64,000 nucleotides of DNA from Acidobacteriota bacterium (GTDB taxonomy: Bacteria > Acidobacteriota > Terriglobia > Terriglobales > SCQP01). Below are positions 21,216 through 54,253 of the stretch, piece by piece. Where the stretch lies: assembly GCA_021818955.1 (NCBI GenBank), contig JAKASR010000003.1, positions 186,001 through 250,000 on the forward strand, written 5' to 3'. A model generated the notes under the pieces. That model made no database searches, was not told the DNA's origin, and saw only the letters and a program-made list of their open reading frames with translations. Position 1 is the first letter of the stretch. Every line of letters begins with the position of its first letter. Position numbers and translations under genes: made by a program.

Positions 21216-21466
21216 GCGGCTCGGCCGCTTTTACTTTTAGGCGCTGACGTTTTTGCAATGGTCCGGCCGAAGCCGGACGCTTGGCGAAAACTCATGACTG
21301 CCGGGCATTGCCGGGCGCAATTCCCGCGGAATTGCCGGCTTGCTTGATGCAATTCCTGCGGAATTGCTTTGTTTTGTCGTTCCCAGGCGCGGGACCTAAC
21401 CGGAACCCCGCGCTTCGGCCTGCGATTGCGGATGAAAACTGCTGTCCGACTCGACCGTTAACGCTT
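21216..21466 (+). repeat. Mosaic palindromic repeat, copy C
   Basis: 251 bp. H1, the T-rich link and H2 (here gtccggccgaagccggac, whose changed loop base extends the stem) are followed by two tandem versions of H3 (gcaattcccgcggaattgc and gcaattcctgcggaattgc), H4 and the right end ccgttaacgctt. The duplicated H3 with a changed loop shows modular growth. It lies upstream of the cytochrome gene (minus) and of the aspS operon (plus). Confidence 0.92.
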
Positions 21467-36707: not shown

Positions 36708-36710
36708 GCC

Positions 36711-37547
36711 ATGCATTTCGCCAAAGCAGAAGCCAACGGCAATGATTTTTTGCTGATCGAGCTTGATGCTTGCGCCGGCCGGGAACGCGGCCGGCTGGCG
36801 CGGGTGCTTTGCGATCGGCACCGGGGTTTAGGGGCCGATGGCGTCGAATTTTATTCCCGCGATGGCGGCCGCATCCGACTCGAGTTGATCAACGCCGACG
36901 GCAGCGCGGCCGAGATTTCCGGCAATGGCACGCGTTGCGCCGCAGCGTGGATGGCGCGCCAGCATGGGTTTCGTGAAGGCGCGATTCTGACCGGTGGCGG
37001 CGAGCGCTGGACGAAAGTCCTGGGCGAAGCGAACGGCGTCTGGGAAATCGAGAGCCGCATGGGCGCACCGGATTGGCGCCCGGAGGCGGTGCCGCTGCGC
37101 GGCGCGCATGCGCTCGACAACGGGCGCTGGCGTTTACGCCTGCCGGCATGGGGCGAGTTGGAATGCCACGCGCTCTCGCTGGGGAATCCCCAGGCCTGCG
37201 TGCAGGTCGAGACGTTCGCCGAAAACTGGATGCAACTGGCCGCCGCTATCCAAAATTCCGGGTATTTTCCCGCCGGGGTCAATGTCGAATTCTGGCGGCG
37301 GGTGAACGACCGGGCAATCGAGATTCGTATCTATGAGCGCGGCGTAGGCGCGACCCTTTCCAGTGGAACCGGCAGCACCGCGGCAGCCATCTCGGCGTTA
37401 ACCGTTGGCGCCGTGCGCTCGCCGGTACGCGTCATCAGCCCCGGCGGCGAACAAACAGTCGCCTGGGAGGGCGCTGGCCAGCAAACCCATTTGCGCGGCG
37501 GGGCGCGCATCATTGCTGAGGGCGAGTACCTGGGGACCGTGCCTTGA
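36711..37547 (+). CDS. dapF: Diaminopimelate epimerase-like protein with second catalytic Cys replaced by Ser
   Basis: 278 residues with the DapF fold: NGNDFLLIE at the start, HRGLGADGV, the first active-site motif EISGNGTRCAA (Cys76), the middle hinge LSLGNPQACV, and the second motif ERGVGATLSSGTGSTAA. Canonical DapF has CGSG or CGTG in the last motif; here the codon at 37362-37364 is AGT, Ser218. One of the two thiol bases is therefore missing. It may be a DapF with altered mechanism, or an isomerase with another substrate. It overlaps plsC by 4 bp (TTGA). Confidence 0.8.
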   Translation: MHFAKAEANGNDFLLIELDACAGRERGRLARVLCDRHRGLGADGVEFYSRDGGRIRLELINADGSAAEISGNGTRCAAAWMARQHGFREGAILTGGGERWTKVLGEANGVWEIESRMGAPDWRPEAVPLRGAHALDNGRWRLRLPAWGELECHALSLGNPQACVQVETFAENWMQLAAAIQNSGYFPAGVNVEFWRRVNDRAIEIRIYERGVGATLSSGTGSTAAAISALTVGAVRSPVRVISPGGEQTVAWEGAGQQTHLRGGARIIAEGEYLGTVP

Positions 37548-38239
37548 TCCGTTTCTGGCTTATCGCCATCGTCACTTGGTTCTACATGCTGCTGGGGATG
37601 GTATTCGGCCTGCCGGTTTATCTGGCGACCCGTAACCTGCAGGTGCTGTATTTTATTGCCCGCCAAGGCATTGGATTGCTTTTATGGCTGGCCGGCATCC
37701 GGGTGCGCATTATGGGAAAGCCGCCGCGGGCGGGCCGGCTGATATATATGGCCAATCACCAGAGCTACCTGGATCCGCCAATCCTGCTGTGGGCGCTGCC
37801 CGGCTGTCCCTCCATCCTGGCGAAACAGGAGCTGTTTCGGGTTCCCGGATTGGGACTGATTATGCGTTTGGGCAAGCTGGTGCCGGTGCCGCGCGGTCAG
37901 GAAGCGGCCCATGCCAGCATTGATCAGGCGGCGGAGATGTTAACCGCCGGGCGGCCCTTTCTGGTCTTTCCGGAAGGCACACGTTCCACCGATGGCCGCC
38001 TGCTGCCCTTCAAAACCGGCGTTTTTGTGCTGGCGCTGAAAGCATCCGCCCAGGTTGTGCCCATCAGCTTGTCGGGCACTCATGCACTGCTGCCCTCAAA
38101 CCGCCGGCGCCTCCGTTCAGGACAGGTAGAGCTGCGTTTCCATCCGCCGATTGACGCGTCCGCATATGGAGATAAAGAAGAACTGCTCGCGGTTACGCGA
38201 ACAGCTATCGCGGCGGGATTACCGCCATCCGGGAAATAA
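37544..38239 (+). CDS. plsC: 1-acyl-sn-glycerol-3-phosphate acyltransferase
   Basis: 231 residues. An N-terminal membrane segment (LIAIVTWFYMLLGMVFGLPVYLA) is followed by the acyltransferase motif NHQSYLD (H72, D77), a region with PVPRGQEAAHASI and the substrate motif FPEGTRS. It makes phosphatidic acid from lysophosphatidic acid at the inner membrane. The start is the TTG at 37544, overlapping the dapF stop; no better ATG precedes the membrane segment. Repeat copy F lies 19 bp after the stop. Confidence 0.93.
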   Translation: MIRFWLIAIVTWFYMLLGMVFGLPVYLATRNLQVLYFIARQGIGLLLWLAGIRVRIMGKPPRAGRLIYMANHQSYLDPPILLWALPGCPSILAKQELFRVPGLGLIMRLGKLVPVPRGQEAAHASIDQAAEMLTAGRPFLVFPEGTRSTDGRLLPFKTGVFVLALKASAQVVPISLSGTHALLPSNRRRLRSGQVELRFHPPIDASAYGDKEELLAVTRTAIAAGLPPSGK

Positions 38240-38257
38240 CCCGAGCCGGCCCGCGCG

Positions 38258-38332
38258 GCGGCTCGGCCGCTTTTACTTTTAGGCGCTGACGCTTTCGCAA
38301 AGGTCCGGCCGAAACCGGACGCATTGCGAATA
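38258..38332 (+). repeat. Mosaic palindromic repeat, copy F (H1-H2 only)
   Basis: About 75 bp with H1 (gcggctcggccgc from 38258), ttttactttt, the conserved link and H2 (gtccggccgaaaccggac), then attgcgaatactc as in copies B and E, where it stops. It lies between convergent plsC and lpxD and could terminate plsC. A GC-rich inverted stretch (gagccggcc / ggctcggcc) directly precedes it. Confidence 0.9.
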
Positions 38333-38345
38333 CTCAAAGCGGGAT

Positions 38346-39356
38346 TCATTCGTCGCTTTCGGCTGCGCGCGTCCGCCGTAATTGCCGGAATAACTCCGGT
38401 AGCCGGGGCAGCAAGGCCATGCTGCGCAGCCAGAGTCGATGGTCGAATGCCGGCGATCCGCTGTAGGTGCGGCCGCCCTCCAGATTGCCGTGGGTTCCGC
38501 TTTGAGCGGTAATGACGGCGCGGGCGCCGATGGTGCACTGCCCGGCCACGCCGGCCTGTCCCGCCAGGATGCAGTTGTGCTCGACCACGGTGGAACCGGC
38601 CAAGCCCGCTTGAGCGCAGACGATGACGTTGGCGTCGAGCCGCGAATTGTGGCCGATATGCACCAGATTATCCAGCTTGCTGCCATCGCCGACAATCGTC
38701 TCGTCGAGCGTGGCGCGATCGACGCAACTGTTGGCTTGAATCTCCACCCGGTCGCCGAGCCGAACGGTGCCCACTTGGGGAATCTTGCAATGCTCGTCGC
38801 CCAGGGGAGCAAAACCAAAACCATCGCCGCCCAGCACCACCCCCGGTTGCAAAATCACGCCATGGCCCAGTCGCGTTCCTTCGCGAATCACAGCGTGGGC
38901 ATGCGCCAGTAAATCATCGCCGGCGATCACGTCGGCATAGAGCACCACATGGGGGTGCAATACGGCCCGCGCGCCCAGGCGGCAGCCCGGACCGATTACT
39001 ACATAGGCCGCGATATGAGCTCCGGGGCCGAGTTCGGCGCTGGGATCGATGCACGCCGTGGGATGAATCCCTGGAACCGGCCGGGCCACGGGCTGCAGCA
39101 ATTCCATGGCTTGCGCCAGCGATGTCATGGGTGATTGCACCCGAATTGAAGGGCGGCCGAGGTCGGGAAAGTCCGGCGGCAGCAGCAATGCCCCGGCCCG
39201 GCTCGCGCGCGCCGCAGCCAGATGAGCCTCGGAGGCGGCAAACGATAAATCCCGTGGCGAAGCGTTCGACAGCGAGGCGACACGATTTAACTCCAGATCC
39301 GGGTCGCCTTGCACGCTAATACCGCCGAGAGCCTGCGCAAGTTGGGCCAATTTCAT
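38346..39356 (-). CDS. lpxD: UDP-3-O-acylglucosamine N-acyltransferase LpxD
   Basis: 336 residues. An N-terminal uridine-binding domain (LNRVASLSNASPRDLSFAASEAHLAAA) precedes a left-handed beta-helix of hexapeptide repeats (ACIDPSAELGPGAHIAAYVVIGPGCRLG). GDGFGFAP and the catalytic His236 in LVHIGHNSRLDANVIVCAQAGLAGS are typical. It adds the second acyl chain of lipid A. It stands apart from lpxA, lpxB and fabZ, which are not in the window. This and lptE show that the organism makes lipopolysaccharide. Confidence 0.95.
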   Translation of the reverse strand: MKLAQLAQALGGISVQGDPDLELNRVASLSNASPRDLSFAASEAHLAAARASRAGALLLPPDFPDLGRPSIRVQSPMTSLAQAMELLQPVARPVPGIHPTACIDPSAELGPGAHIAAYVVIGPGCRLGARAVLHPHVVLYADVIAGDDLLAHAHAVIREGTRLGHGVILQPGVVLGGDGFGFAPLGDEHCKIPQVGTVRLGDRVEIQANSCVDRATLDETIVGDGSKLDNLVHIGHNSRLDANVIVCAQAGLAGSTVVEHNCILAGQAGVAGQCTIGARAVITAQSGTHGNLEGGRTYSGSPAFDHRLWLRSMALLPRLPELFRQLRRTRAAESDE

Positions 39357-39413
39357 ATCAATCGAATCGTAGCGCCTTGCCCGCCTGCGGCGGCGCGCCT
39401 GGAGAAAAAGACC

Positions 39414-39902
39414 TTAAGCCGGCGGGGAGGCCGGAAACAATTGAATTTGCTCACGCGTGACAGGAGTCGTCCGTGTCCGCCGTTGCGCGCCAATCACGCC
39501 CAGGACCTGGCACTCGCGCAAAGCATTGCGCGGAACATAAATACGCTGCACCTCGCCACTCGAGTCCGGCGGCAAAAGATGCAGGCCAAACCCGGAGAGT
39601 GCGAGCAAGTTGTTGGGAACCACACCCTCGAGCACCGTATCATCTTGAAAGCGCAGCCGCACCCACAGTCCGGGGTGTCGCGGCCGCACGCCGGAACGCC
39701 GCCGCCAGCTGGGTTCCTGCGCGGTAAACTCCCGCATAAAATACGCCAGCCGTATTTCCGATTGCGGAATCCGCACCCCCTGGCCCTGGGTATCGAGCAG
39801 TTCGACGGGATCCATATCCGCCAGGCTATCCGGCTCGACAAATCCCCGCACCAGCTGCCGATCTTGTTTTCGAATAAGGATTTTTTTATGGGTGGAAGGC
39901 AT
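39414..39902 (-). CDS. Conserved-looking hypothetical protein, beta-rich
   Basis: 162 residues, no signal peptide or membrane segment. It begins MPSTHKKILIRKQDRQLVRGFVEP and has a second similar unit (LWVRLRFQDDTVLEGVVPNNLLALSGFGLHLLPPDSSGEVQRIYVPRNALRECQVLGVIG). Both look like small beta-barrel units with the pattern charged-strand, G-[FV]-[VE]-P. This suggests two tandem Sm- or PilZ-like barrels, but I do not recognise the family. The Arg-rich middle (WRRRSGVRPRH) may bind nucleic acid. Codon use is like that of the neighbours. Confidence 0.6.
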   Translation of the reverse strand: MPSTHKKILIRKQDRQLVRGFVEPDSLADMDPVELLDTQGQGVRIPQSEIRLAYFMREFTAQEPSWRRRSGVRPRHPGLWVRLRFQDDTVLEGVVPNNLLALSGFGLHLLPPDSSGEVQRIYVPRNALRECQVLGVIGAQRRTRTTPVTREQIQLFPASPPA

Positions 39903-40125
39903 GTAGCAAGCACCGGGATGAGAGGAACGGCTGGGTTTTATCTTACCTTAGCGCGGCGGCATTACGCTTTCCCGATGCCCCGATTCCTGGCAGGAAAGCA
40001 GGGTGCAATGAGCGCCATAATCGCGCCAATATGCATATACAAAACGTAAGAAACGTGATAGTATCAACGCTTTCCACTCCTTGGAGTTTGGCCATCTAAA
40101 CCCAAGGAGACAAAAGAGTTAACCC

Positions 40126-41076
40126 TTGGCAAAGCCGCCAGATCCAAGCGCCCGGCTCAGGCCGCTGCCGGCCGTGGCGACCGCTTTTTTAGGCTATCTG
40201 AAAATTGAGAAAGGCTTGTCCGCAAATACGTTAGCGGCCTATGAACGGGATTTGCGCGAGTTCCTGTATTGGCTGGAGCAAGCCGGGACGGACTGGGAAA
40301 GCTGCCAGCGCCGGCATTTGCAGCAGTTTTTGCTGCATTTGCAACAGCGCGGGCTGCGGGACAATTCCCTGGCCCGCCATCAGGTAAGCTTGCGCGGCTG
40401 GTTTCGATTTTTATGCCTGGACCGGTTGCGTAAAGACAATCCGGCGGAAGGGTTGGAGGCGCCTCGCCGCCAGCGGGTCCTGCCCAAATCGCTTTCGGCC
40501 GAAGAGATGCAAACGGTACTGTCCGGCCTGGACCCCCGGGAGAACACCCGCGGAACTGCTCACGATCAAGACCTGGACTTGCGTGACCAGGCGCTGCTGG
40601 AACTGGCCTACGCCAGTGGCATGCGGGTCAGCGAATTATCCGGGCTGCGGCTGGAGAACCTGGATCTTGAAATGGGACTAGCCCGCGTGCGCGGCAAAGG
40701 GGACAAGGAACGTCTGACGCCAATCGGGCGTTCGGCCTTAGCCGCCCTGCGGCGATACTTGGAAGGGGTCCGCGGGCGATCGTCCGCGAGCCGGACCAGT
40801 CCTTATGTGTTTCCCGGCGCCTCGGGCGGGCGATTGAGCCGCCAGGCGATTTGGAAAAGGATACGCGCTCAAGGCGAAAAAGCGGGCTTGCGCCGGAAGC
40901 TGAGTCCGCATATGTTTCGTCATAGCTTCGCCACCCATCTTTTGGAAGGCGGGGCCGATCTGCGCAGTTTACAGACTTTACTGGGACACGCTGATATTTC
41001 CACCACGCAGATGTACACCCATGTAGCAACCCGGCGACTGCAACAAGTGTACCGCCGACACCATCCGCGCGCATAA
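40126..41076 (+). CDS. xerC: Tyrosine recombinase XerC/XerD
   Basis: 316 residues. An N-terminal SAM-like core-binding domain (FLGYLKIEKGLSANTLAAYERDLREFLYWL) precedes a catalytic domain with the full set R167, K191, H262, R265, H288, Y297 (GMRVSELSGL, GKGDKER, HMFRHSFATHLL, LLGHADISTTQMYTH). Length and spacing are those of chromosomal Xer recombinases that resolve chromosome dimers at dif; the XerC or XerD choice is open. The start is taken as the TTG at 40126, though its AGGAG is 16 nt upstream, which is far. Confidence 0.92.
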   Translation: MAKPPDPSARLRPLPAVATAFLGYLKIEKGLSANTLAAYERDLREFLYWLEQAGTDWESCQRRHLQQFLLHLQQRGLRDNSLARHQVSLRGWFRFLCLDRLRKDNPAEGLEAPRRQRVLPKSLSAEEMQTVLSGLDPRENTRGTAHDQDLDLRDQALLELAYASGMRVSELSGLRLENLDLEMGLARVRGKGDKERLTPIGRSALAALRRYLEGVRGRSSASRTSPYVFPGASGGRLSRQAIWKRIRAQGEKAGLRRKLSPHMFRHSFATHLLEGGADLRSLQTLLGHADISTTQMYTHVATRRLQQVYRRHHPRA

Positions 41077-41124
41077 GGCGCGGTGCGGCCTGCGCGCCGC
41101 AGCCAGGAAAGCACGGAACCGCCG

Positions 41125-42528
41125 ATGGCTGATTATCTATTCGAACTAGAGCGCCACTTGAACCCGACGCAATGGAGTCTGGTACGCCGCTTGGAGCAGG
41201 CGTGCCGGGAATTAGGCAGCAACCTATACCTTTGCGGCGGCCCCATGCGCGATCTATTGGCGCAGCGTCCGATTCTCAGCCTGGATTTCATACTCGAAGG
41301 CAGCTTGGAAAAGCTGGAAAAAAAGCTTTTCCAGCAGGATTTCGAGCTAATTTACGCCAACCCCAAAGAAGGCAGCATCCGCCTGCGCAGGCAAAATACG
41401 CGGCTGCGGATCAGCGTGGCGCATCGGGTGCTTTACGAGCCGGGAGGGGAGCCGCGGCTGGAGCCGGGCAGCGTCATTGAAGATCTGCGGGGACGCGGGT
41501 TTACGCTCGACGCGATCGGACTTTCGCTGGCGGCGGCCTCGCGCGGCCTGCTGCTCGATCCGACCAATGGCCTGGCGGATATTGAACTGCGCCAGATCCG
41601 CATGATTCACCCCTATATTTTCGAGGAGGATCCGGCGCGGCTGTTGCGCGCATTACGGCTGGAAAGCCGTTTGGAGTATCGCCTGGAAGAACGCACCGCC
41701 GCCCGACATCAGGCCGGAGTCGAGGCCAACCTGCTGGCGTCGGTCTCCCCCACCTCGCTGGCGCGGGAAATTGAGGCCTTGGCCTATGAACCCGACCCCG
41801 CCGCCATCCTGCGCGCCTGGAACAAGGCTGAATTATTGCAGCCGGCCCTGGGGAAAGGCGTCAAGATCGCGCGCCTGCAACTGGCACTGCCGGCGCAGAT
41901 TACGAAATGCAGCCAGGCGCTGACCGCGGCCGGCCTGGTGCCCGACGTCGCACCCGTCGTCTTGCTCAGCCTGTTCGGCAAGCTGGATGCGCACGATCAG
42001 GACCGGATTGCGAAATTGCCGCTTAGCCAGCCCCTGCGGCAATGGCGGCAACTGACCGCGGCGGCGCGCCAGTTGGAGAAAAAAATCGGCGGCAAGGAAG
42101 GACAGAACCTGAGCGCGCTCTATGACCTCTTGCACCATATGCCCCCGGAAGTCACGTTATGGGCGATGTTGCACCCGCAAAACGCGCGCGCGCAGAAAAA
42201 GTTAAAGGATTTTTGCGCCACCCTGCCGGGCTTGCGCGAGCGCTTGCCCATCCGTGAGCTGCGCCAAATGGGTGCGCGGCCTGAAGACCCCGCTTTTGCC
42301 CAGGTGCTGGAAACCTTGTTTCGGCAAATGCTGGAAGGCAAGCTGAGCCAGGCCGGCGAACTCTCGCAGGCGCTGGCCGCCGAAGCCACCAAACGCGGCC
42401 TGGTTATGCCAGCCCCCGCCCTAGCGGCTGCGCCCGCCCAGGCGCGGCCGGCGGCGCACCCGCGGCCGCGGCGGGCCGCAACCCGTTCTGGTGGCGCCGC
42501 CACTTCACCGCGCCGCAGCCGGAACTAA
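41125..42528 (+). CDS. CCA-adding/poly(A) polymerase-like nucleotidyltransferase with degraded active site
   Basis: 467 residues. The class II nucleotidyltransferase head starts at CGGPMRDLL (G38, G39, R42, D43), but the DxD motif reads SLD (Ser52, Asp54), so the first metal-binding Asp is missing. The RRDFTxNA motif reads GRGFTLDA (123-130). The later EEDPARLLRALRLESRLEY motif is conserved. A helical body follows, then a Pro/Arg/Ala-rich basic tail (about 430-467). The sequence looks intact and not frameshifted. It may be inactive or have a changed function. It directly precedes dnaE (6 bp). Confidence 0.78.
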   Translation: MADYLFELERHLNPTQWSLVRRLEQACRELGSNLYLCGGPMRDLLAQRPILSLDFILEGSLEKLEKKLFQQDFELIYANPKEGSIRLRRQNTRLRISVAHRVLYEPGGEPRLEPGSVIEDLRGRGFTLDAIGLSLAAASRGLLLDPTNGLADIELRQIRMIHPYIFEEDPARLLRALRLESRLEYRLEERTAARHQAGVEANLLASVSPTSLAREIEALAYEPDPAAILRAWNKAELLQPALGKGVKIARLQLALPAQITKCSQALTAAGLVPDVAPVVLLSLFGKLDAHDQDRIAKLPLSQPLRQWRQLTAAARQLEKKIGGKEGQNLSALYDLLHHMPPEVTLWAMLHPQNARAQKKLKDFCATLPGLRERLPIRELRQMGARPEDPAFAQVLETLFRQMLEGKLSQAGELSQALAAEATKRGLVMPAPALAAAPAQARPAAHPRPRRAATRSGGAATSPRRSRN

Positions 42529-42534
42529 TTCACT

Positions 42535-45500
42535 ATGGCCGAGGAATTCGTTCACCTTCACGTGCATTCGGATTATTCCCTGCTGGATGGCGCCTGCCAC
42601 ATTTCCGGCCTGATGGAGCGAGTCAAGGCGAAGGGAATGAAGGCGGTAGCGCTGACCGACCACGGAAATCTGTTCGGTGCCGTGGCCTTCCACGAGGCGG
42701 CGCGCGCCGCCGGCGTGCAGCCTATTCTGGGCTGCGAGCTCTATATCGCCAAACAAGCCGATCACCGCGCCGCGCCTGAAAACGATAGCGGATACAATCA
42801 CCTGGTCGTGCTCGCGGAAAACGAGACCGGATATCGCAACCTGGTCAAGATCGTCACCGAAGCCAGCCTGCACGGTTTTTATTACAAGCCGCGCATCAGC
42901 AAAACCTTTTTGGCGGCACACCGCGAGGGACTGATCGCGCTTTCCGCCTGCCTGAAAGGCGAGGTGCAGGAACGGCTGCTGGAAGGCAATACCGAGCGGG
43001 CCTGCGCCGCCGCCGTGGAATTCAGCGATCTGTTTGGCAAGGGCAATTTCTATCTGGAAATTCAGGATCAGGGTTTGGAGCTGGAAGAGCGCATCCGCGA
43101 GCCGTTGCTTCAGGTCATGGAGCGCACCGGTTTGCCGCTGGTGGCGACCAACGACTGCCATTATCTCGACCACGCCGACGCCGCCGCGCATGACGTCCTG
43201 CTCTGCATACAAACCGGCAAGCGGGTGCAGGACAGCGACCGGATGCGCTTTTCCTCCGACCAGTTTTATCTTAAATCTCCGGCCGAGATGGCGCAGTTGT
43301 TTCATGGGCTGAAACCGGCGCTGCGGAGCACGCTGGAAATCGCGGAACGCTGCCAGGTGAAGCTGCGCCCGATAGAGAATCCTTTTCCGGAATTCGCGGT
43401 TCCCGAGGGCGAAACCCTCGAATCCTATCTGGAAAGCATAGCCAGCGCGGGTTTAGCCGCGCGCGAGCCGCGGATTGTCGAGCGGCGCCGCCGCGGCCTG
43501 GTACGCTACCCGCCCGAGGCTTACCGCGAACGTCTGCGCCACGAACTCGGCATTATCCGCCAGATGCGCTATGCCGGTTACTTCCTGATTGTCTGGGATT
43601 TCATTCGCTACGCCCGCGAGCAGGGCATTCCCGTCGGCCCCGGCCGCGGGTCCGCGGCGGGCAGCCTGGTGAGCTATGCGCTCGGGATTACCGATCTCGA
43701 CCCGCTGGAAAACGAACTGCTTTTCGAGCGCTTCCTGAACCCCGAACGCGTTTCCATGCCCGATATCGACGTGGATTTCTGCATGGAACGGCGCGATGAA
43801 GTGATCGATTACGTCACCCGCCGTTACGGGCGCGACAATGTCTCGCAGATCATCACCTTCGGCACTTTGGGGGCCAAGGCGGCATTGAAGGATGTCGGCC
43901 GGGTGCTGGATATGCCCTATGGCGAGATGGACCGGCTGGCCAAGCTGGTGCCCAATCAACTCAACATCACCCTCGAGCAGGCGCTCGAGCAGGAACCTGA
44001 GTTGCGCCGCCTGCAACAGCAGGATGCGCGCGTGGGCCAGATTTTTGAGTACGCCTTGCGGCTCGAGGGGCTTTCCCGCCACGCCGGCGTTCACGCCGCC
44101 GGGGTGGTCATCTCCCCGCGCCCGCTGGCGGAGTTGGTGCCGTTACATCGCACCACGCGAGCGGAAATCGTCACCCAGTTCGACCTGAACGGTTTGGAAA
44201 AGCTGGGACTGCTGAAGATGGATTTCCTCGGCTTAACCACGCTGACGATTTTGCAGGAAGCCGAGCGTCTGATCCGCGCGCATCGCGGCGTCACGATCGA
44301 TTGGGACCAGGTGCCGGAAGATGATGCGGCCACTTATGAAATTTTGGAACGCGGCCAGACGAGCGGGGTTTTCCAGTTCGAATCTCCCGGCATGCGCGAT
44401 ATCCTGCGCCGCTATCGGCCCCGCCGGCTCAGCGACCTGACCGCGCTCAATGCACTCTATCGCCCCGGCCCCATTCAAGGCGGCATGATTGATGATTTTA
44501 TCGAGCGCCGCCATGGCCGGCGCCCGATCAGCTATGAGTTGCCGGAGCTGGAACCGATTTTGTCGGAAACGCTAGGCGTTTTTGTCTATCAGGAGCAGGT
44601 CATGCAGGCCGCGCACGCGTTGGCAGGTTATTCGCTGGGCGAAGCCGACCTGTTGCGCCGCGCTATGGGCAAAAAAAAGCCGGAAGAGATGAAACGCCAC
44701 CGGGAAAAGTTTATCCACGGCGCCTGTGCCCGGGGATTGAAACGCGACCGCGTGGAACACGTCTTTGACCTGATGGCGCAGTTCGCCGGATACGGCTTCA
44801 ATAAAAGCCATGCCGCGGCTTATGCGGTCATTGCGTACCGCACCGCCTATCTCAAAGCGCATTACCCGGTGGAGTTCATGGCGGCGTTGCTCAGCTTGCA
44901 GTTGGGCGATAGCGACAGCATCGTCAAATACATCGGCGAGTGCCGCGAGATGCAGATTCCGGTGTTGCCGCCTGAGATCAACGTCAGCGAAGCGCGATTC
45001 ACGCCGCAAGGCCAGTCGATCCGCTTTGGCCTGGAAGCGGTGAAAAATCTGGGGGCGCAGGCCGCCCGTTCGCTGCTGGAGGCTCGCGCCGGCGGCGGGC
45101 CTTTTCGCAATCTGGACGATTTTTGCCGGCGAGCCGGCGCCAAGCACTTCAACCGTCGGGTCCTCGAAAGCCTAATCAAAAGCGGCGCTTTCGACAGTTT
45201 TGGCTCCCGCGCCACGCTCATGGCCTCGCTGGATGCCGTCATGGAGGATGCCCAGAAGCAGCAGCGGGATCATGCGATTGGCCAGCCGGGCTTGTTTCTT
45301 CATTTCGATACCGGACAAGAGGCCGCGCCCAGGCCGGCGGTTCCGGAATGGGACGATGCGACGCGCCTGCAATACGAGCGCGAGGTACTCGGTCTCTACG
45401 TCAGCGGCCACCCACTCGATCGTCACGCTGAGTTGATCGAAGCCCTGGAACTGGACCGGCTGGAGCAATTGCCGCAAAAGTCCGCCGGCGAGACGGTGCG

Positions 45501-45987
45501 CCTGGCTGGGTTATTGACCCAACTGCAGGCGAAGCGCAACAAAAAAGGCGAGGCTTGGGCCATCGTGCGGCTGGAAACGCGCTCCGGCAGCCTGGAATGC
45601 CTTTGCTTCGCAGAAGCCTATCGCCGCTTGAGCGAGGTCCTGCGCCTGACCGTACCCGTCTGGGCGCGCGGCCGCCTGTTGCCGGACGAAGGCTCGGCCC
45701 GCCTGCAGTTGGAAGAAGTTACGGAATTGACCCGGCAGCGCCCGCGCCTGCCCCGCGCCCTGGCTTTGCAAATCGCGCTGGATTCGCTCTCTTCGGCCGC
45801 GCTGGATTCGCTCTGCCAGCGGCTCTCCGGCCCCGCCGGAACTACGCGGGTGCAGTTGCAATTGCGCTCGGATCGAGAAAATTTCCTGCAGATTTTGGAG
45901 CTGCGCCAGGGCATTGAGGCCAATGCCGAATGGCGGCGGCAATTGGCGGAACTCTGCGGAGAGCAGGCGCTGCGGCGCCTCGATTGA
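42535..45987 (+). CDS. dnaE: DNA polymerase III subunit alpha
   Basis: 1150 residues, DnaE1 type. N-terminal PHP domain (FVHLHVHSDYSLLDGACHISGL; ALTDHGNLFGAV; CELYIA), palm with PGRGSAAGSLVSYALGITDLDPL and PDIDVDFCMERRDEVIDYV (catalytic Asps), fingers (GVFQFESPGMRDILRRYRP; YRPGPIQGGMIDDFIERRHG), helix-hairpin-helix (FNKSHAAAYAVIAYRTAYLK) and an OB domain near 970-1050. It is the replicative polymerase. The start follows the nucleotidyltransferase by 6 bp and accA follows its stop by 2 bp. Confidence 0.98.
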   Translation: MAEEFVHLHVHSDYSLLDGACHISGLMERVKAKGMKAVALTDHGNLFGAVAFHEAARAAGVQPILGCELYIAKQADHRAAPENDSGYNHLVVLAENETGYRNLVKIVTEASLHGFYYKPRISKTFLAAHREGLIALSACLKGEVQERLLEGNTERACAAAVEFSDLFGKGNFYLEIQDQGLELEERIREPLLQVMERTGLPLVATNDCHYLDHADAAAHDVLLCIQTGKRVQDSDRMRFSSDQFYLKSPAEMAQLFHGLKPALRSTLEIAERCQVKLRPIENPFPEFAVPEGETLESYLESIASAGLAAREPRIVERRRRGLVRYPPEAYRERLRHELGIIRQMRYAGYFLIVWDFIRYAREQGIPVGPGRGSAAGSLVSYALGITDLDPLENELLFERFLNPERVSMPDIDVDFCMERRDEVIDYVTRRYGRDNVSQIITFGTLGAKAALKDVGRVLDMPYGEMDRLAKLVPNQLNITLEQALEQEPELRRLQQQDARVGQIFEYALRLEGLSRHAGVHAAGVVISPRPLAELVPLHRTTRAEIVTQFDLNGLEKLGLLKMDFLGLTTLTILQEAERLIRAHRGVTIDWDQVPEDDAATYEILERGQTSGVFQFESPGMRDILRRYRPRRLSDLTALNALYRPGPIQGGMIDDFIERRHGRRPISYELPELEPILSETLGVFVYQEQVMQAAHALAGYSLGEADLLRRAMGKKKPEEMKRHREKFIHGACARGLKRDRVEHVFDLMAQFAGYGFNKSHAAAYAVIAYRTAYLKAHYPVEFMAALLSLQLGDSDSIVKYIGECREMQIPVLPPEINVSEARFTPQGQSIRFGLEAVKNLGAQAARSLLEARAGGGPFRNLDDFCRRAGAKHFNRRVLESLIKSGAFDSFGSRATLMASLDAVMEDAQKQQRDHAIGQPGLFLHFDTGQEAAPRPAVPEWDDATRLQYEREVLGLYVSGHPLDRHAELIEALELDRLEQLPQKSAGETVRLAGLLTQLQAKRNKKGEAWAIVRLETRSGSLECLCFAEAYRRLSEVLRLTVPVWARGRLLPDEGSARLQLEEVTELTRQRPRLPRALALQIALDSLSSAALDSLCQRLSGPAGTTRVQLQLRSDRENFLQILELRQGIEANAEWRRQLAELCGEQALRRLD

Positions 45988-45989
45988 AT

Positions 45990-46805
45990 ATGCCGGATAG
46001 CACCTCCAATGCGGCCTGGAATCGGGTAGAGCTGGCGCGCCACCCTCAACGTCCGGCTTTTCTCGATTTCGTTCGGGAATTGTGCGCGGATTTTGTCGAA
46101 CTGCACGGCGACCGCCGCTTTGCCGATGATGAGGCGCTGGTGGGCGGGATGGCGTCATTCCGCGGCCGCCAGGTTATGGTTTTAGGCCAGCAGCGTGGAC
46201 GTGAAATCAAGGAACGCATCCGCCGCAACTTCGGCCAGGCCAAGCCCGAGGGCTATCGCAAGGCCCTGCGCCTGATGCGCTTGGCGGAGAAGTTTCGCCG
46301 TCCGGTACTGACCTTTGTGGATACGCAGGGCGCTTATCCCGGCATCGACGCCGAGGAGCGCGGGCAAGCCGAAGCCATCGCTTTCAACCTGCGGGAGATG
46401 GCGCGGCTGCGCGTCCCGGTAATCGCGACCATTATCGGCGAGGGGGGCAGTGGCGGAGCCTTAGCCATCGCGCTCGCCAACCGCATTTTGATGCTGGAAA
46501 ATTCCATCTACTCGGTCATTAGCCCCGAAGGCTGTGCTTCGATCATGTGGCGTGACCCCGCCCAAAAGGAGTCGGCCGCCGCCGCCCTGCGCCTGACCGC
46601 GCCTGAACTATTGGAGCTGGCGCTGATTGACGAGGTGGTGCCGGAGCCGCAGGGGGGCGCGCATCTAGATGCGCCGGCCGCCGCCGCCCTGCTCGGCGAA
46701 GCTCTGGAACGCACCCTCATCGACCTGGAGCAAGTTACCGATTGGGCGGAACAACGCTATCAGCGATGGCGCCGCATGGGACAGTTTTTTGTAGATTCGG
46801 TATAA
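45990..46805 (+). CDS. accA: Acetyl-CoA carboxylase carboxyltransferase subunit alpha
   Basis: 271 residues, somewhat shorter than the 310-320 of many AccA because the N-terminal helical extension is reduced. Core: WNRVELARHPQRPAFLDFVRELCADFVELHGDRRFADDEALVGGMASFRG, QGAYPGIDAEERGQAEAIAFNLREM, and IGEGGSGGALAIALANRILMLENSIYSVISPEGCASIMWRD. With AccD it transfers CO2 from biotin to acetyl-CoA in fatty-acid synthesis. The ATG at 45990 is used; the dnaE-accA order is common in bacteria. Confidence 0.95.
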   Translation: MPDSTSNAAWNRVELARHPQRPAFLDFVRELCADFVELHGDRRFADDEALVGGMASFRGRQVMVLGQQRGREIKERIRRNFGQAKPEGYRKALRLMRLAEKFRRPVLTFVDTQGAYPGIDAEERGQAEAIAFNLREMARLRVPVIATIIGEGGSGGALAIALANRILMLENSIYSVISPEGCASIMWRDPAQKESAAAALRLTAPELLELALIDEVVPEPQGGAHLDAPAAAALLGEALERTLIDLEQVTDWAEQRYQRWRRMGQFFVDSV

Positions 46806-46901
46806 ACTTTTCGCCTATAACAAAAGCGCGCCCGGCTGAAGTTTCAATTTGGCCCTGGCCGGCCGGCGATTTTCATTTCGATATAAACTGCCCCGCGGGC
46901 G

Positions 46902-48005
46902 ATGCTTTTTCTGCGATGCCGGCCGCTAGGCGGCTGGAAAATATGGTTTGTGGCGGCGCTCGACATCCATCTGGGTTTTTGCCGCGCTTGCCGGCGCGAG
47001 CTCCATGGCGCTTTGTACCGGATGGCGTCCTTGCGGGGCGAAGAAGCGGCCGGCGCTCGCCTGCATCTGCTGCGCTGGCAACGGCGGCTGCGACAGATGG
47101 AAATCCTGCTCGCGCCGGGTGAGGACGCCCCCGCGCAAAATTTTGTGCTGATGCGGGTAATCGAGGCGGTGCAATGGCTGGGCTCTTTGACCGCGCCTTC
47201 CCTTCGCTTCGTCTGGAATCCGGATGCCTGGCCGGTGATCGAAACCCGGGGAGATCCCCGCGCGCTGGGAAAAGCCTTGCTGGCGCTCGGCCAGCGCTGG
47301 CAACAGGCCGGCGCGGCGGAGGTGCGCCTGATGCTCGATGCCGGTCATCCTGTGAATACTCCTGTGCACGGCCAAGTTCGCGATCGAGCGCTCTGGCTCG
47401 AATTGTTCCCGCTTGGCCTGCATTCCGCGCCATTGTCACCGATGGAACAGGAACTCGATCTGCTGCGCCGGGCGGGCGCATTGCAGCTAGTCGTGGCGGA
47501 GGAAGTAAGCGGGCTACGCATCTGCCTGCCGCAATTAACCCGCATCCGGCGCGCATCGCAGCCGGCGCGGCCGCGTGGAGCACAGGCGCCGGTGCGGCTT
47601 TTAGCGCTCTCCCCCGATGCGGGTTTGAGCGAATGGGTGCGCGACCGCCTGGGCCGGCAAAAGTGCTTTTCTACGCAGGTTCAAACCTGGCGAGAGGCCC
47701 GTTTGTTGCTAGGTGTACGAAATTATTCCCTCATCATTTATGACTGGAACTGGCCCCCATCCCTACCCGGAGCCGCTATCTACTGGCTATTGCGCCACCG
47801 GCCGGAATGTTTACGGCAATGCCTGATTTTGGCCGACCCACTGCCCCCGCCCGATTTTCTAAAATTAATGGAACACTACGGCTTAATCTGGGCTCCTACC
47901 CCCCTGAACGCAAGCGCGCTGGAAAACGCCTGCGGCAGAATTTTCGCTAACTCAGCAGAAATTACCCGGCCGCTCCCTACCGCGCCCTGGTCGCCATCAG
48001 CGTAA
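46902..48005 (+). CDS. Probable degenerate histidine kinase/receiver protein
   Basis: 367 residues of uncertain family. Residues 30-220 resemble a worn histidine kinase: a helical part (ELHGALYRMASLRGEEA), then LGKALLALGQRWQQAGAAEVRLML and EEVSGLRICLPQL like the last strand of an ATPase domain, but no clear N, G1 or G2 box. Residues 230-355 resemble a receiver domain: VRLLALSPDAGLSEWVRDRL, LIIYDWNWP (Asp281 at the phosphoacceptor position), LILADP, and APTPLNASALENA, where the usual Lys before Pro is Thr. The start is uncertain. Confidence 0.5.
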   Translation: MLFLRCRPLGGWKIWFVAALDIHLGFCRACRRELHGALYRMASLRGEEAAGARLHLLRWQRRLRQMEILLAPGEDAPAQNFVLMRVIEAVQWLGSLTAPSLRFVWNPDAWPVIETRGDPRALGKALLALGQRWQQAGAAEVRLMLDAGHPVNTPVHGQVRDRALWLELFPLGLHSAPLSPMEQELDLLRRAGALQLVVAEEVSGLRICLPQLTRIRRASQPARPRGAQAPVRLLALSPDAGLSEWVRDRLGRQKCFSTQVQTWREARLLLGVRNYSLIIYDWNWPPSLPGAAIYWLLRHRPECLRQCLILADPLPPPDFLKLMEHYGLIWAPTPLNASALENACGRIFANSAEITRPLPTAPWSPSA

Positions 48006-48098
48006 ATCCTACAATTTACAGACTTTATTTCTACAGGTGTACTTTGGCATGCCGGCTGCTATTTACTCCGACAGACGAAGTGGCGCAACCGAGAAAGG
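48006..48098 (+). other. Non-coding stretch before a terminator
   Basis: 93 bp after the preceding gene, holding TACAAT (48009-48014) as a possible -10 and the palindrome ggcatgcc, followed by the terminator. It may be only a 3' UTR, or a short RNA of about 110 nt. No known riboswitch consensus is matched. Confidence 0.35.
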
Positions 48099-48130
48099 CC
48101 CCGGTCAAATCGGCCGGGGTTTTTCTTTTT
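48099..48130 (+). terminator. Rho-independent terminator
   Basis: An 8-bp stem (ccccggtc at 48099-48106, ggccgggg at 48112-48119, one G-T pair) with loop aaatc is directly followed by tttttctttttt. A strong intrinsic terminator between the degenerate sensor gene and the glycosyltransferase gene. Confidence 0.85.
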
Positions 48131-48195
48131 AAGATAATTTTCGGGTTAAATGGCGGCTAAACGCAGGTTGCGGTAATCCAAACATCACAGAATCC

Positions 48196-49260
48196 ATGTT
48201 TTTGGTTGTATTCGGACTCTCGCTCTCCTCGGCTTGGGGCAATGGACAGGTCACGACATTGCGCGGGCTTCTGGGCGAACTTGCCCGGCAGGGACATCGC
48301 GTGCGTTTTTACGAACGCGATCTACCCTACTATCGGCATCACCGGGATGGCTTGGATTTCTCGCCTGTCGAACTCGTGCTCTACTCCGACTGGAACGAGG
48401 TTCGGCGGGATGCCCTGACCGTGGTCACCAGCGCCGATGTGGTGCTGTTCACCTCATTCTGTCCACAAGGCGCGCGCATCCAGGCCGAATGTTTCGGACG
48501 CGGCTGTGACTGCCTGATATTTTACGATCTCGACACGCCGGTCACGCTGGCGGGCATGCGGCAACGCGAAGCCCGAATTCTGGATTATCTTCTCCCCGAA
48601 CATATTCCCCGGTTTGCTCATTATTTCAGCTTCAGCGGGGGTCCGATTCTGGAAGAACTGCGCCGGCAATGGAGCGCGCGCGCCTGTCATGCGCTGTATC
48701 TTGGCGTGGATCCTCAATTTTTCCAGCGCACGCCGCCGCGTCCGGAATTCGCCTGCCAGCTTGGTTTTGTCGGCACTTACGCCGCCGACCGCCAGGGCAA
48801 GCTGGAACGCAACTTGCTGGCGCCGGCGCGGCAACATCCGGAGTGGCGCTTTCTGCTGGCCGGGGCGCAATACCCGCCCACGCTGATGCTGCCTGCCAAC
48901 CTGGCGGTTTATGAGCACTTGCGGCCGGCCGAATTGCCGCAATTTTACAGCTCCTGCGACTGGGTGCTGAATCTGACGCGGGGCGATATGTGCGCCGCCG
49001 GTTATTCGCCTTCCGCGCGGCTGTTTGAAGCCGCGGCCTGCGGCGCAGCACTACTGAGCGACTGCTGGCCGGGATTGGAAACATTTTTCCAGCCCGGCGA
49101 AGAGATTGAAGTCCTCGAAGCCGGCAAGGACTTGGTAGCCATTTTGCGTCAGAGCGAAAGCCGCCGCCGCGCGATGGGGGAACGCGCCCGCCAGAAGGTG
49201 CTGGAGGAACATAGCCTGGCGGTGCGCAGCCGCCAATTGCTTGCCGTTCTGGCCGCCTAG
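48196..49260 (+). CDS. CgeB-like glycosyltransferase
   Basis: 354 residues. The N-terminal part (FGLSLSSAWGNGQVTTLRGLLGELARQGHRVRFYERDLPYYRHHRD) and the middle (CDCLIFYDLDTPVTLAGM; YFSFSGGPILEELRRQW; ALYLGVDPQFF) match the CgeB/DUF3880 family. The C-terminal Glyco_trans_1_2 domain has LGFVGTYAADRQGKLERNLL and GYSPSARLFEAAACGAALLSDCWPGLETFF. It probably uses a nucleotide sugar; the acceptor is unknown. Monocistronic, after a strong terminator. Confidence 0.88.
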   Translation: MFLVVFGLSLSSAWGNGQVTTLRGLLGELARQGHRVRFYERDLPYYRHHRDGLDFSPVELVLYSDWNEVRRDALTVVTSADVVLFTSFCPQGARIQAECFGRGCDCLIFYDLDTPVTLAGMRQREARILDYLLPEHIPRFAHYFSFSGGPILEELRRQWSARACHALYLGVDPQFFQRTPPRPEFACQLGFVGTYAADRQGKLERNLLAPARQHPEWRFLLAGAQYPPTLMLPANLAVYEHLRPAELPQFYSSCDWVLNLTRGDMCAAGYSPSARLFEAAACGAALLSDCWPGLETFFQPGEEIEVLEAGKDLVAILRQSESRRRAMGERARQKVLEEHSLAVRSRQLLAVLAA

Positions 49261-49308
49261 AACACGGCCTGACCACAAGGCCATCCTATCGCGCGCTTCC
49301 GCTATTTT

Positions 49309-50361
49309 CTAGCCGGAGTGGCGAATATGCATCACATCGCCGTCCTGGACGATATAATCCTTGCCTTCAAGCCGCAACCAGCCGCGCTCGCGCGCCGCGG
49401 CCTCGCTGCCGGCTTCCAGCAACCGTTGCCAATCAATCACTTCGGCGCGTATGAAATGATGCGCCAGGTCGGTATGGATGACGCCGGCAGCATCCAGCGC
49501 CCGCGTACCGCGGGTAATGGTCCAGGCGCGACATTCGTCTTCTCCCGCCGTGAAGAATGAAATCAGCCCGAGCAGGTCATAGACCACGCGCGCCAGCCGC
49601 ACCAGGCCGGGTTCCTGCAACCCATAACCGGCTAGAAATTCCAGCCGTTCCGGCTCCGGTAGGCTGGCGATCTCCGCTTCCAGCAAGGCGCATAAAGCCA
49701 GGCCACGGGTGCGCGGCTTGGCTTCCAGCAAAAGCTGTATTTGATGACGCTCCAGCGCATGCCCCATCTCGGCCGCTTCGGCCTCATCCAGGTTGAGCAC
49801 ATAGAGGATCGGTTTCCGGCTCAGAAATTGAAAGCCGCGTAGGCGCTTCTCCTCTTCGGCGGTAAGCTCAAGCTCCCTCAACGGTTTTTCCGCTTCCAAT
49901 TGCGCTTGCAATCTGGCCAGCAAAGCCGCTTCCTGTTCCAGGGCCGGACTTTTTTGCTTTTTCAGATCAAGTTGCACCCGATCCCGCCGCTTTTCTATTT
50001 GCGTTAAATCATTGAAGATGAGATCAAATTCCAATTCGCGAATCTCTTCCGCCGCAGGCCGGTTGTCTTCGCCGAAAGCCCGAATGACATGAACCAGCGC
50101 ATCCACCTCACGCAAGGCTTGAATGCCGGTACCGGCGCGCAGCGCAGCCGGGGTTAAAGCTGCCAGATCAATCAATTCCAGGGTGGCGGGGGTGGCCTTT
50201 CGGGGCTGATAGTGATGCGCAAGGCGCTCCAGCCGACGGTCGGGTATAGCCGCGATCCCCACTCTATCTTCGCGCCGGCCCTCCGGTTGAGTTCGTCCGG
50301 TTAAAAGGTTGAATAAGGTGGTTTTACCCGTCTGGGGCAGGCCAATAATTCCGGTTTGCAT
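49309..50361 (-). CDS. ychF: Ribosome-binding ATPase YchF
   Basis: 350 residues. Obg-like GTPase fold with P-loop GLPQTGKTT (7-15). In place of NKxD it has NLDE, the change that gives YchF its ATP preference. A coiled-coil insertion (KRRDRVQLDLKKQKSPALEQEAALLARLQAQLEAEKPL) follows, and a C-terminal TGS domain (ISFFTAGEDECRAWTITRGTRALDAAGVIHTDL ... YIVQDGDVMHIRHS). It binds ribosomes and affects oxidative stress responses. The ATG at 50361 is chosen over an upstream Met because it gives the canonical MQTGIIGLPQTGKTT. Confidence 0.96.
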   Translation of the reverse strand: MQTGIIGLPQTGKTTLFNLLTGRTQPEGRREDRVGIAAIPDRRLERLAHHYQPRKATPATLELIDLAALTPAALRAGTGIQALREVDALVHVIRAFGEDNRPAAEEIRELEFDLIFNDLTQIEKRRDRVQLDLKKQKSPALEQEAALLARLQAQLEAEKPLRELELTAEEEKRLRGFQFLSRKPILYVLNLDEAEAAEMGHALERHQIQLLLEAKPRTRGLALCALLEAEIASLPEPERLEFLAGYGLQEPGLVRLARVVYDLLGLISFFTAGEDECRAWTITRGTRALDAAGVIHTDLAHHFIRAEVIDWQRLLEAGSEAAARERGWLRLEGKDYIVQDGDVMHIRHSG

Positions 50362-50420
50362 ATTTTTCCCGTTTTTCCCGCCTATCTCGAGTCGCGCGGC
50401 GCCCACTGCGACTCCATCGG

Positions 50421-50449
50421 TTCCACATCCATGCGGGAAGTTCTATAAT
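50421..50449 (+). promoter_or_regulatory. Sigma-70-type promoter for the small UvrD-tail-like gene
   Basis: TTCCAC (50421-50426), a 17-bp spacer and TATAAT (50444-50449). The leader to the ATG at 50570 would be about 114 nt and holds a 9-codon frame at 50491-50520, whose role is unclear. Confidence 0.5.
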
Positions 50450-50569
50450 ACGTAAAGGGCAGGTTGAATCTGAAACAAAGGGCCGGATTCATGGTTGCCG
50501 ACCCCGCATGGGGCGAATGAATAGGTAAATGCGGCCCTTCCGCCAAAGGCAGAATCAGGAAAGGAAGTC

Positions 50570-50773
50570 ATGATTTTTTCTTCCGATCAACGTATTCGTC
50601 ACGCCGCTTATGGCAATGGCACCATCCTTCATTCCGACGAGCAACGGACCGAGATCCAATTTGACCAATACGGACGCAAGAAGTTCGTCACCCGCATGGT
50701 CCAGTTGGAAGCCACCGATGAACCCGCGCCGGCCCGTTCGCCGCGGCGCAGCCGCAAGAAAGCCGAACAATAG
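50570..50773 (+). CDS. Small stand-alone domain resembling the UvrD/PcrA C-terminal tail
   Basis: 67 residues. QRIRHAAYGNGTILHSDEQRTEIQFDQYGRKKFVTRMVQLE has the pattern VxHxxFGxGxVxxxxxxxxxxxFxxxGxKxLxxxxxxL of the Tudor-like tail of UvrD/PcrA helicases, which contacts RNA polymerase. A basic tail follows (PRRSRKKAEQ). There is a strong ribosome-binding site (ggaaaggaag) before the ATG. A role in transcription-coupled processes is only inference from that resemblance; CarD-like proteins have a similar fold. Confidence 0.65.
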   Translation: MIFSSDQRIRHAAYGNGTILHSDEQRTEIQFDQYGRKKFVTRMVQLEATDEPAPARSPRRSRKKAEQ

Positions 50774-50958
50774 CGGGAGTTTAGACTCGGCCTCGCGGTC
50801 CCCTCAATACAACAAATGCAAGCCCACCAGCTTCTAAATCAAAGAGAAGAATGGCGTCTCCGTGCATTTTTAAGCCGGTGGTGGGCTTCGACGCGAGTTC
50901 TGGTGTAATATTTTTCCACCCTTGGCTACAAGGTTGGGGGAGCCGTAAGGAGTGCAGC

Positions 50959-51576
50959 GTGAGGCAGCAAACGGCCATCAGCAAACGCGTGGCCCCCGAA
51001 TTTGAAGACGAAGCACAGGCCATCGCTCTGGCTCAACAAGGCAGCGCTGACGCCTTTGAATATTTGTATCAATTGCACAAGCGGCGAGTGTATTCGCTTT
51101 GTTTGCGCATGACGGGCAACACCGCCGAAGCGGAAGACCTGGCTCAGGAAGCCTTCCTGCAACTGTTCCGTAAGATTGCCACCTTCCGCGGCGAGAGCGC
51201 CTTTTCCACCTGGCTGCATCGTTTGTCGGTGAATGTGGTGCTTATGCATTTGCGCCGGAAAGGCTTGCCGGAAGTCTCGCTGGAAGAAACCTTGCAGCCC
51301 TTGCAAGAAGATGGTCCCAAGCGTGACATTGGGGAGAAAGATAAGACCCTGGTCGGTTCGCTGGACCGGGTCAATCTGGAGCGGGCCATCGAAAGCCTGC
51401 CCCCCGGGTATCGCACGATTTTCGTGTTGCACGACATGGAGGGCTACGAACATAACGAGATTGCAGGGATGATGGGTTGCTCGATCGGCAACTCCAAATC
51501 TCAATTGCATAAGGCGCGAATGAAATTGCGCGACTTGCTGCGCGCACCTCATCCGCACCGCGGAACGAGGGAATAA
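50959..51576 (+). CDS. ECF-type RNA polymerase sigma factor
   Basis: 205 residues from the GTG at 50959, which has AAGGAG 6 nt upstream; an ATG 36 codons earlier would add a tail with no family resemblance. Region 2: [71 protein letters not shown]. Region 4: [48 protein letters not shown]. It resembles the RpoE-like group. The next gene, 4 bp later, encodes its probable anti-sigma factor. Confidence 0.93.
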
Positions 51577-53228: not shown

Positions 53229-53400
53229 GCCGGAAGCGGAACGGAACGCGGTTCCGCATCAGTCAGACTAATGGCAGCCGCCTCGGCTTGCAAGCCTCAA
53301 GCACTTCCCGTACTCAAAGCTGAATCAACGAATCAACACCTGTAACTGAACTTTTCGGTTTCAAACTCTCCAAAACGAGGGCGCCAGCGGCCTTGAATTT

Positions 53401-53504
53401 TGCTGTCATGCTGTCATGGCCGCGCATAAGTCTATTAAAATCAAATACATAGAAATGGCAGCAAGATTGGCGGGAGCTGTCATGCTGGGTCATGCTGCTG
53501 TCAT
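53401..53504. repeat. TGCTGTCA repeat locus 2 (inverted pair plus direct copies)
   Basis: Two overlapping TGCTGTCAT sites (53401-53417), a 37-bp AT-rich spacer, then ATGGCAGCA (53455-53463), the inverse with one change. Further copies are GCTGTCAT at 53476-53483 and TGCTGTCAT at 53496-53504. The spacer end (tattaaaatcaaatacat) matches that of locus 1 (tatttcaataatatacat) at 14 of 18 positions. The rest of the gap between the GNAT and HAD genes (53229-53400, 53505-53542) shows nothing I can name. Confidence 0.75.
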
Positions 53505-53542
53505 TCCTGTCGCAGCCGGCATGCGACGTAAGCGTCAATGTT

Positions 53543-54253
53543 TCACGATGGAGAGGCCGGTGTAATCGGCGCCGCCGTCCGGATTTCTTGCCAGCCCAGC
53601 CAGGAGCTCAGCAGCGGATCGCGGAAATCCAGCAGCACGGCTTCCGCGCCGGCGGCGCGCAGCGAGCTTTCCGGATAAGTCGTCGCCAGCGCCAGGCAGC
53701 GGGCGCCGGCAGCCCGGGCGGCGGCAATACCCGCCAAGGCATCCTCAAAAACCAGGCAATCGCGGCTGGATTGGTGCAGCCGTGCGGCCGCGGTCAGGTA
53801 AATTTCCGGATCGGGCTTTCCCCGCGCGACGTCTTCTTCCGCCAAAACCAGGTCAAAACGATGATCCAGCCGCAGCGCTTCCAGGACGCGCCGCACATTA
53901 TGCCCGGGCGCGGAACTGGCCAGCGCGGTGGGAATCTGGCGGCGGCGGAGCTCGGCGAGGAACTCGCGCAAGCCGGGCAACGGCTCCAGACCGTCGCCAA
54001 GGCGGCGCCAGTATCCGCTTTCCAGCTCCAGGCTCAGCCGTTTCAATTCCGTTTCGCTCAATGCGCGGCCAAACAATTCCGGAATCAACTCGGAATTGCG
54101 CCGGCCGAAGGTGCGCTGCGCCGGATACGACTGGCAGGCATCGGGATGAGCGCGTACAAACTCGTTCCACGCGGCCTCATATAGCCGGCTGTTATCGAGC
54201 AGCACGCCATCCATATCGAACAGCACGGCGCACGGGGGCGGTTTCAGGGTCAT
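53543..54253 (-). CDS. HAD-superfamily hydrolase (beta-phosphoglucomutase-like)
   Basis: 236 residues. HAD motif I LFDMDGVLLDN (D13, D15), the C1 cap (SRLYEAAWNEFVRAHPDACQSYPAQRTFGRRNSELIPELFG), motif II ALASS, motif III KPDPEIY and motif IV LVFEDALAGIAAARAAGA. Members are phosphatases or phosphoglucomutases; the second Asp of DxD and the small cap fit either use. A TATACT box lies 5 nt before the ATG. The last 15 residues (APITPASPS) are likely unstructured. Confidence 0.9.
   Translation of the reverse strand: MTLKPPPCAVLFDMDGVLLDNSRLYEAAWNEFVRAHPDACQSYPAQRTFGRRNSELIPELFGRALSETELKRLSLELESGYWRRLGDGLEPLPGLREFLAELRRRQIPTALASSAPGHNVRRVLEALRLDHRFDLVLAEEDVARGKPDPEIYLTAAARLHQSSRDCLVFEDALAGIAAARAAGARCLALATTYPESSLRAAGAEAVLLDFRDPLLSSWLGWQEIRTAAPITPASPS

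Follow-up and report, generated by a model that had tools for sequence, protein, structure and literature searches.

The modules in the window

The window is a stretch of 64,000 nucleotides (C29:186001-250000) from the 3.80-Mb genome of an Acidobacteriota bacterium (G000, here called the own genome), and it holds two intergenic loci in which copies of a short word are grouped around an AT-rich core. Locus 1 lies between the end of queG and the start of ybhB, and locus 2 between the end of a HAD gene and the start of a short minus-strand gene with no Pfam or NCBIfam match. Housekeeping genes flank both copies, and no primase or initiator gene is found immediately 5' of either. The features are as follows.

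16609-16865: stretch that locus 1 has in common with a second copy at G000:C23:31306-31561 (257 bp, 92% identity)
16670-16686, plus strand: locus 1, upstream direct words TGCTGCCAT and TGCTGTCAC
16687-16722, plus strand: locus 1, AT-rich core of 36 bp, with an IHF-like 13-mer at about 16707-16719 (two mismatches)
16723-16731, minus strand: locus 1, inverted word GTGACAGCA
16742-16769, plus strand: locus 1, downstream direct words starting at 16742, 16753 and 16761
53295-53588: interval bounded by the conserved flanks of locus 2, 294 bp against 43 bp in the genus mate G001 (251 bp fewer)
53401-53408, plus strand: locus 2, first upstream direct word, TGCTGTCA
53409-53417, plus strand: locus 2, second upstream direct word, TGCTGTCAT, with TGCTGTCA starting at 53409
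53418-53454, plus strand: locus 2, AT-rich core of 37 bp
53455-53463, minus strand: locus 2, inverted word ATGGCAGCA, one mismatch
53475-53504, plus strand: locus 2, downstream direct words AGCTGTCAT at 53475, degenerate TGCTGGGTCAT at about 53483 and TGCTGTCAT at 53496-53504

An earlier note on this DNA proposed that locus 2 repeats the architecture of locus 1, and the order of words is indeed the same at 16670-16769 and 53401-53504; the 37-bp AT-rich spacer, the inverse site and the further direct copies described for locus 2 were confirmed by re-reading. That spacer has a GC content of 35% (62.5% in the window) and contains the IHF-like 13-mer AATCAAATACATA at about 53439-53451, one mismatch away from WATCAANNNNTTR. 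The view that this is a real element and not chance agrees with the count of TGCTGTCA, which occurs in seven exact copies in the window against 1.34 expected, a number reached in none of 100 shuffles; all seven sit within the two loci. The stated agreement of the spacer ends (14 of 18 bases) could not be reproduced: with the spacers in register, 12 of the last 20 bases match and none of the first nine. As for the gene context given at the time, queG/ybhB and HAD/short minus-strand gene stand, and the label GNAT for the latter gene finds no Pfam or NCBIfam match; the setting between a minus-strand end and a minus-strand start is not general, as other copies stand between two convergent genes or ahead of a plus-strand gene.

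Direct words at the two loci are spaced by a mixture of 8, 10 and 11 bp, and locus 1 contains the Pho-box-like direct repeat CTGTCAT-N4-CTGTCAT. A Pho box (PhoB, CTGTCAT at an 11-bp period at phosphate genes) was considered and rejected on the mixed periods, the varying words and the neighbors queG, ybhB and HAD.

Other repeats are found in the same kind of places. The palindromic intergenic repeat GCAATTCCTGCGGAATTGC (window 21317-21361; G000:C19:1-90, C24 and C35) is often in tandem and often near modules, two short repeats, AGGCGCGGGACCTAA..GGAACCCCGCGC and GCCCGACTCGGCCGTTAACGCTT, stand beside modules at about 16500-16600 of the window and in G000:C19, C35 and C22, and a terminator-like AAGCGGCTCGGCCGCTTTTACTTTT occurs near the copies C12b, C13, C35b, C36 and C46. 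A 157-bp tandem duplication with the palindrome TCTCATGCATCATGAGA adjoins module E5 (G000:C24; L052 9567-9863). The intergenic regions are mosaics of repeats.

One plan with changing words

The own genome contains at least 20 intergenic modules built to one plan, a number that includes modules below the reach of the sequence model described below, which were read by eye. The plan consists of two direct words, an AT-rich core of 36-39 bp, one inverted word and two to three direct words; a typical copy opens with an A-rich GAAAAAT ahead of the two upstream words and has its downstream direct words 8-11 bp apart. Conserved spacing, on which the earlier note had made the element depend, was borne out when further genomic copies were aligned. 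The core has the consensus TTAAgyCyTTTAwwaTCAATAAtTTA and carries an IHF-like site at a fixed offset: WATCAANNNNTTR is found with zero to two mismatches at the same offset in 8/8 aligned copies, although single shuffled spacers often score as well and several spacers match the IHF consensus no better than shuffled ones. The inverted word and the next direct word form perfect hairpins, for example ATGGCGGCAAATGAATATTTGCCGCCAT.

The word itself varies by copy (TGCTGTCAY, TTGTCAC, ATGTCAC, TTGCCGCCAT, TTGCCGCCAC, TTGCCGTCAC, ATGCCGTCAC, TACTTCCACC, TAGTGTCCCA and others), and modules with different words may adjoin one another, as at C36 and C23. Across the whole genome, the pattern TGCTGTCA-N25..55-TGNCAGCA has 13 matches at six loci and the same pattern read backwards has none; a seventh module uses TTGTCAC as its word. 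Agreement of words within a copy was measured, with no annotation of words, as the longest string common to the upstream and the reverse-complemented downstream segments. Its mean length is 8.0 for segments of one copy and 5.3 for segments of different or shuffled copies, and none of 10,000 shuffles reached the observed value; the other two segment comparisons likewise gave 0/10,000. Cores lie outside open reading frames of at least 150 aa in 39 of 43 cases, compared with 26% of random positions in the same stretches (74% inside).

A sequence model (R1) built from eight copies was run on 120 relatives, and the own contigs were read in stretches around its matches. It gave 25 matches in the own genome, 16 in the genus mate G001, and 17 and 10 in G004 and G008, which belong to another genus within the same family; elsewhere among the 120 relatives there were one to a few weak matches per genome. 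At E<=0.001 the own genome has 14 matches, G001 five and G004 three, with four single matches among the other genomes listed.

Dispersal and orthologous sites

Copies of the family are short and dispersed. Four copies with the word TTGTCAC have about 130 bp in common, with sharp ends and unrelated flanks, and separate amplified sub-families exist in G001 and in G004/G008, whose copies have inverted ends and contain two or three cores at a distance of about 75 bp; the terminal inverted repeats are CAAATTTACTGTCAGT in the G001 sub-family and AAAATTCATTTGTCACC in that of G004. The window copies (E-type) have no terminal inverted repeats, and no clear target-site duplication was seen at the copies. 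At locus 2, G001 keeps the gene pair (the short gene is 95% identical) with no module in the gap, and in the other genomes of the family, compared at these genes, neither the short gene nor queG is accompanied by a module. Gain in the lineage of the window is therefore likelier than loss.

A long CRISPR array in G001 (G001:C7:11400-18240, L049), with a 37-nt repeat and a period of about 72 bp, follows cas genes, and one module copy stands at its far end. A link to CRISPR was considered and this position judged incidental, no copy of the own genome having been read in such a place.

The contig scan for the TGCTGTCA form yielded no clear relatives of the family; what it returned were other repeat families (Ruminococcaceae, Oscillospiraceae) and scattered single matches (Methylobacter). 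Among these, Ruminococcaceae RUG14730 and Oscillospiraceae RGIG2615 (L036, L038, L040, L044, L045 and L047) carry multi-copy arrays of CTGTCAYC in both orientations, on several contigs per genome and with a different core. A separate conserved intergenic motif, (GC)TGTCAAGCCC...ATCAAnAAnATA...GTGGCGTATTAGTTCCA...TATAAT with GTAAGTCCTTTGG about 75 bp further on, was seen in another family of the same order (L063, L065, L068, L073, L078 and L082), and looks like a repeated promoter or small-RNA element. BLAST of whole modules against phages and plasmids gave matches essentially at chance level.

The plan at phage replication genes

In the own genome, a prophage at tRNA-Ser (G000:C23, about 35700-51000; L330 4748-20000) contains an integrase, a primase-helicase, a terminase and an iteron-type array. 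The primase, of 843 aa with PriCT_1 and D5_N domains, matches NCBIfam TIGR01613 ('phage/plasmid primase, P4 family') with 259.8 bits at a cut-off of 108.7; no close viral relatives of it were found, and the distant ones are annotated DNA primase/helicase. The array lies about 125 bp past the primase stop (L330 12304-12410, minus strand) and reads TTGCCCACC twice, CTTGCTTTGTTTTCAATAACTTAGAAG, the inverted word and three direct words, with a core that is recognized by the family model. It is followed by a second array, with the word CAGCCTTTAAAATGAGAGACTTAC. The att region past tRNA-Ser is without the module plan. Since the array sits at the primase and the att region lacks the plan, an origin and an att reading of the module are separated inside one genome. 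About 0.5 Mb of own sequence was searched for initiators, and no other P4-family primase turned up there; the word beside this one occurs in no solo copy. One module copy adjoins a PadR/ADOP pair (TIGR03433, TIGR03434), protein families that carry Acidobacteria in their names and so fit that phylum.

Core and plan recur outside the family. A viral contig (L314) has TGTCAT twice, 38 bp, the inverted word and two further words directly behind a gene for a Toprim+VapE primase-helicase; in an E. coli P4-like satellite with a DUF927/Toprim primase (L308), words stand in both orientations around the core; and words surround the core in a 4-kb plasmid with a DUF3987 protein (L307) and in a viral contig with DUF5906/Pox_D5 (L318). 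Several cores about 75-100 bp apart were also observed near a DUF5906 primase-helicase in the phage L189 (IMGVR_UViG_3300025598_000078, 3347-3470 and 7840-8015), and this cluster is a good candidate for an origin. In three further cases a tRNA 3' end, or a tRNA fragment, is followed within a few bases by the core and then by direct words (L062, tRNA-Ser, TTGCACAT twice; L067, tRNA-Gln; L304, a Legionella plasmid), and in an E. coli prophage (L309) it lies about 120 bp past the gene of an Arm-DNA-binding integrase; in such places a role as att arm is likelier. In a viral sample chosen by the core alone, a primase-helicase was nearby in 8 of 11 contigs against 5.1 expected, a weak excess, and the core by itself is therefore not diagnostic.

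Probable replication-origin modules and alternative readings

Altogether, both loci are best read as solo, dispersed replication-origin modules of phage or satellite type, and not as operators of the neighboring genes, a reading to which we give a probability of roughly 0.6. The words would be iterons bound by the primase-helicase of one particular element, and bending, by IHF or HU, and melting would take place at the AT-rich core and its IHF-like site; a hairpin could in addition arise from the inverted word and the direct word that follows. Both the binding of an initiator to the words and that of IHF to the core are predicted from the sequence pattern. In an intact element, the module would adjoin the gene of its own primase-helicase, as it does in the prophage with its own word, and the window copies, which lack the gene and are scattered as short repeats between genes, may derive from such origins. 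Amplification was separate in different lineages, and one sub-family of four copies has sharp bounds. Because the same plan sits behind phage primase-helicase genes, it points to replication rather than transcription. Several findings count against the origin reading: the solo copies have no initiator gene next to them and none of them has the word of the prophage array, the core is also found after tRNA 3' ends and near an integrase, its IHF-like site is a consensus match that several spacers make no better than shuffled ones, and the excess of cores near primase-helicase genes in the viral sample is slight. As no initiator adjoins them, the window copies are taken as origin-type modules standing alone and not as functional origins. 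They might titrate a phage initiator as decoys, fire in the course of an infection, or be inert relics.

The placements at tRNA 3' ends and behind the L309 integrase suit a different proposal, in which the modules are arm regions (attP/attL) of tyrosine integrases, the words binding the arm domain and the core being an IHF bend, with solo copies as remains of excised or decayed integrative elements. It is improbable for the family at hand: none of 27 integrase loci in four genomes has an array within 1.5 kb (a bare core stands at one XerC-like locus), the solo copies are away from tRNA genes, and the own prophage has its array at the primase and not in the att region after tRNA-Ser. The narrower idea of arms for a DUF4102-type integrase was rejected, as no such integrase (Arm-DNA-bind_3, PF13356) occurs in the four genomes and no array at any integrase. 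We consider it similarly unlikely that the modules are MITE-like non-autonomous DNA transposons whose words, partly terminal inverted repeats, are sites of a transposase acting in trans, a proposal that is compatible with an origin ancestry. Lineage-specific, near-identical copies with sharp ends, the inverted ends of the G001 and G004 sub-families and the empty site at locus 2 in G001 would all fit it; set against them are the pattern search, which found short elements alone and no transposase enclosed by these ends in a longer element, the lack of a clear target-site duplication, the E-type window copies without terminal inverted repeats, and the recurrence of core and plan at phage replication genes.

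Readings that tie the modules to transcription fare worse. Operators of a regulator controlling the downstream minus-strand gene, as the earlier note had supposed, could explain direct words spaced 8, 10 or 11 bp, a spacing known for dimeric regulators, but the modules stand in all orientations beside unrelated genes, the word differs from copy to copy, and modules are absent upstream of the orthologous genes in all genomes of the family, which leaves this proposal very unlikely. An RNA element, in which word and inverted word would pair in a transcript and covary so as to keep the hairpin, is more improbable still: the perfect hairpins speak for it, while the extra direct words at 8-11 bp, the lack of any fixed relation to genes, the absence of an Rfam match at E<=1 and the occurrence of the same plan as phage origin-like DNA speak against it.

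Returning to the origin modules, a more speculative and rather doubtful extension is that the lineage keeps and multiplies gene-less phage or satellite origins, each with the word of a different element, as decoys or as minimal parasites. As decoys, they would titrate the initiators of incoming phages, a chromosomal, multi-word form of phage-encoded resistance; as parasites, they would be minimal elements spread by phage initiators in trans. No literature on dispersed solo origins was found.

Comparison with known systems

Short dispersed repeats are usually put down to transposon or REP relics, and a family whose members have a plan but no sequence in common, and which matches phage origins, would give such repeats a source of another kind. 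If this is true, the modules could preserve in readable form the initiator specificities of phages and satellites that the lineage has encountered, and might also defend it as decoy origins. Correia elements, BIME/RIB/RIP repeats and MITEs are also short dispersed intergenic repeats with inverted parts, some with an IHF site. Each of these has one fixed sequence or palindrome, whereas here the word changes by copy and the plan is constant.

Phage P4 replicates from an origin, ori1/crr, with its alpha primase-helicase. The primase beside the intact prophage array is of the P4 family (TIGR01613), and in the E. coli P4-like satellite the same core is surrounded by words of both orientations; in contrast, the solo copies lack alpha, and their words are unlike those of that satellite. 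Comparable in layout are the origins of phage-inducible chromosomal islands (PICIs), where an AT-rich stretch between two iteron sets lies 3' of the primase gene (Fillol-Salom et al. 2018, PMC6092414). The modules are alike in having element-specific iteron sets around an AT-rich region, and the arrays of the prophage and of L314 are also 3' of a primase gene. They differ in that the window copies are without a pri-rep gene and scattered as at least 20 short intergenic repeats, and in the common IHF-like core at a fixed place. Among the PICI/P4-type features, iterons around an AT-rich region are found in the window copies, and adjacency to a primase in the prophage array and L314 alone. An origin behind a PrimPol-SF3 gene is described for the plasmid pRN1 (PMC4234260). 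For a phage-type origin acting as a decoy, a precedent is the PER (phage-encoded resistance) origin, for example the 302-bp element of phage Sfi21, which is found on plasmids or a prophage and acts by copy number (PMC6356513). The window copies resemble it as phage-type origins without their gene, outside a phage genome and possibly acting as decoys, and differ from it in being chromosomal and in having many words.
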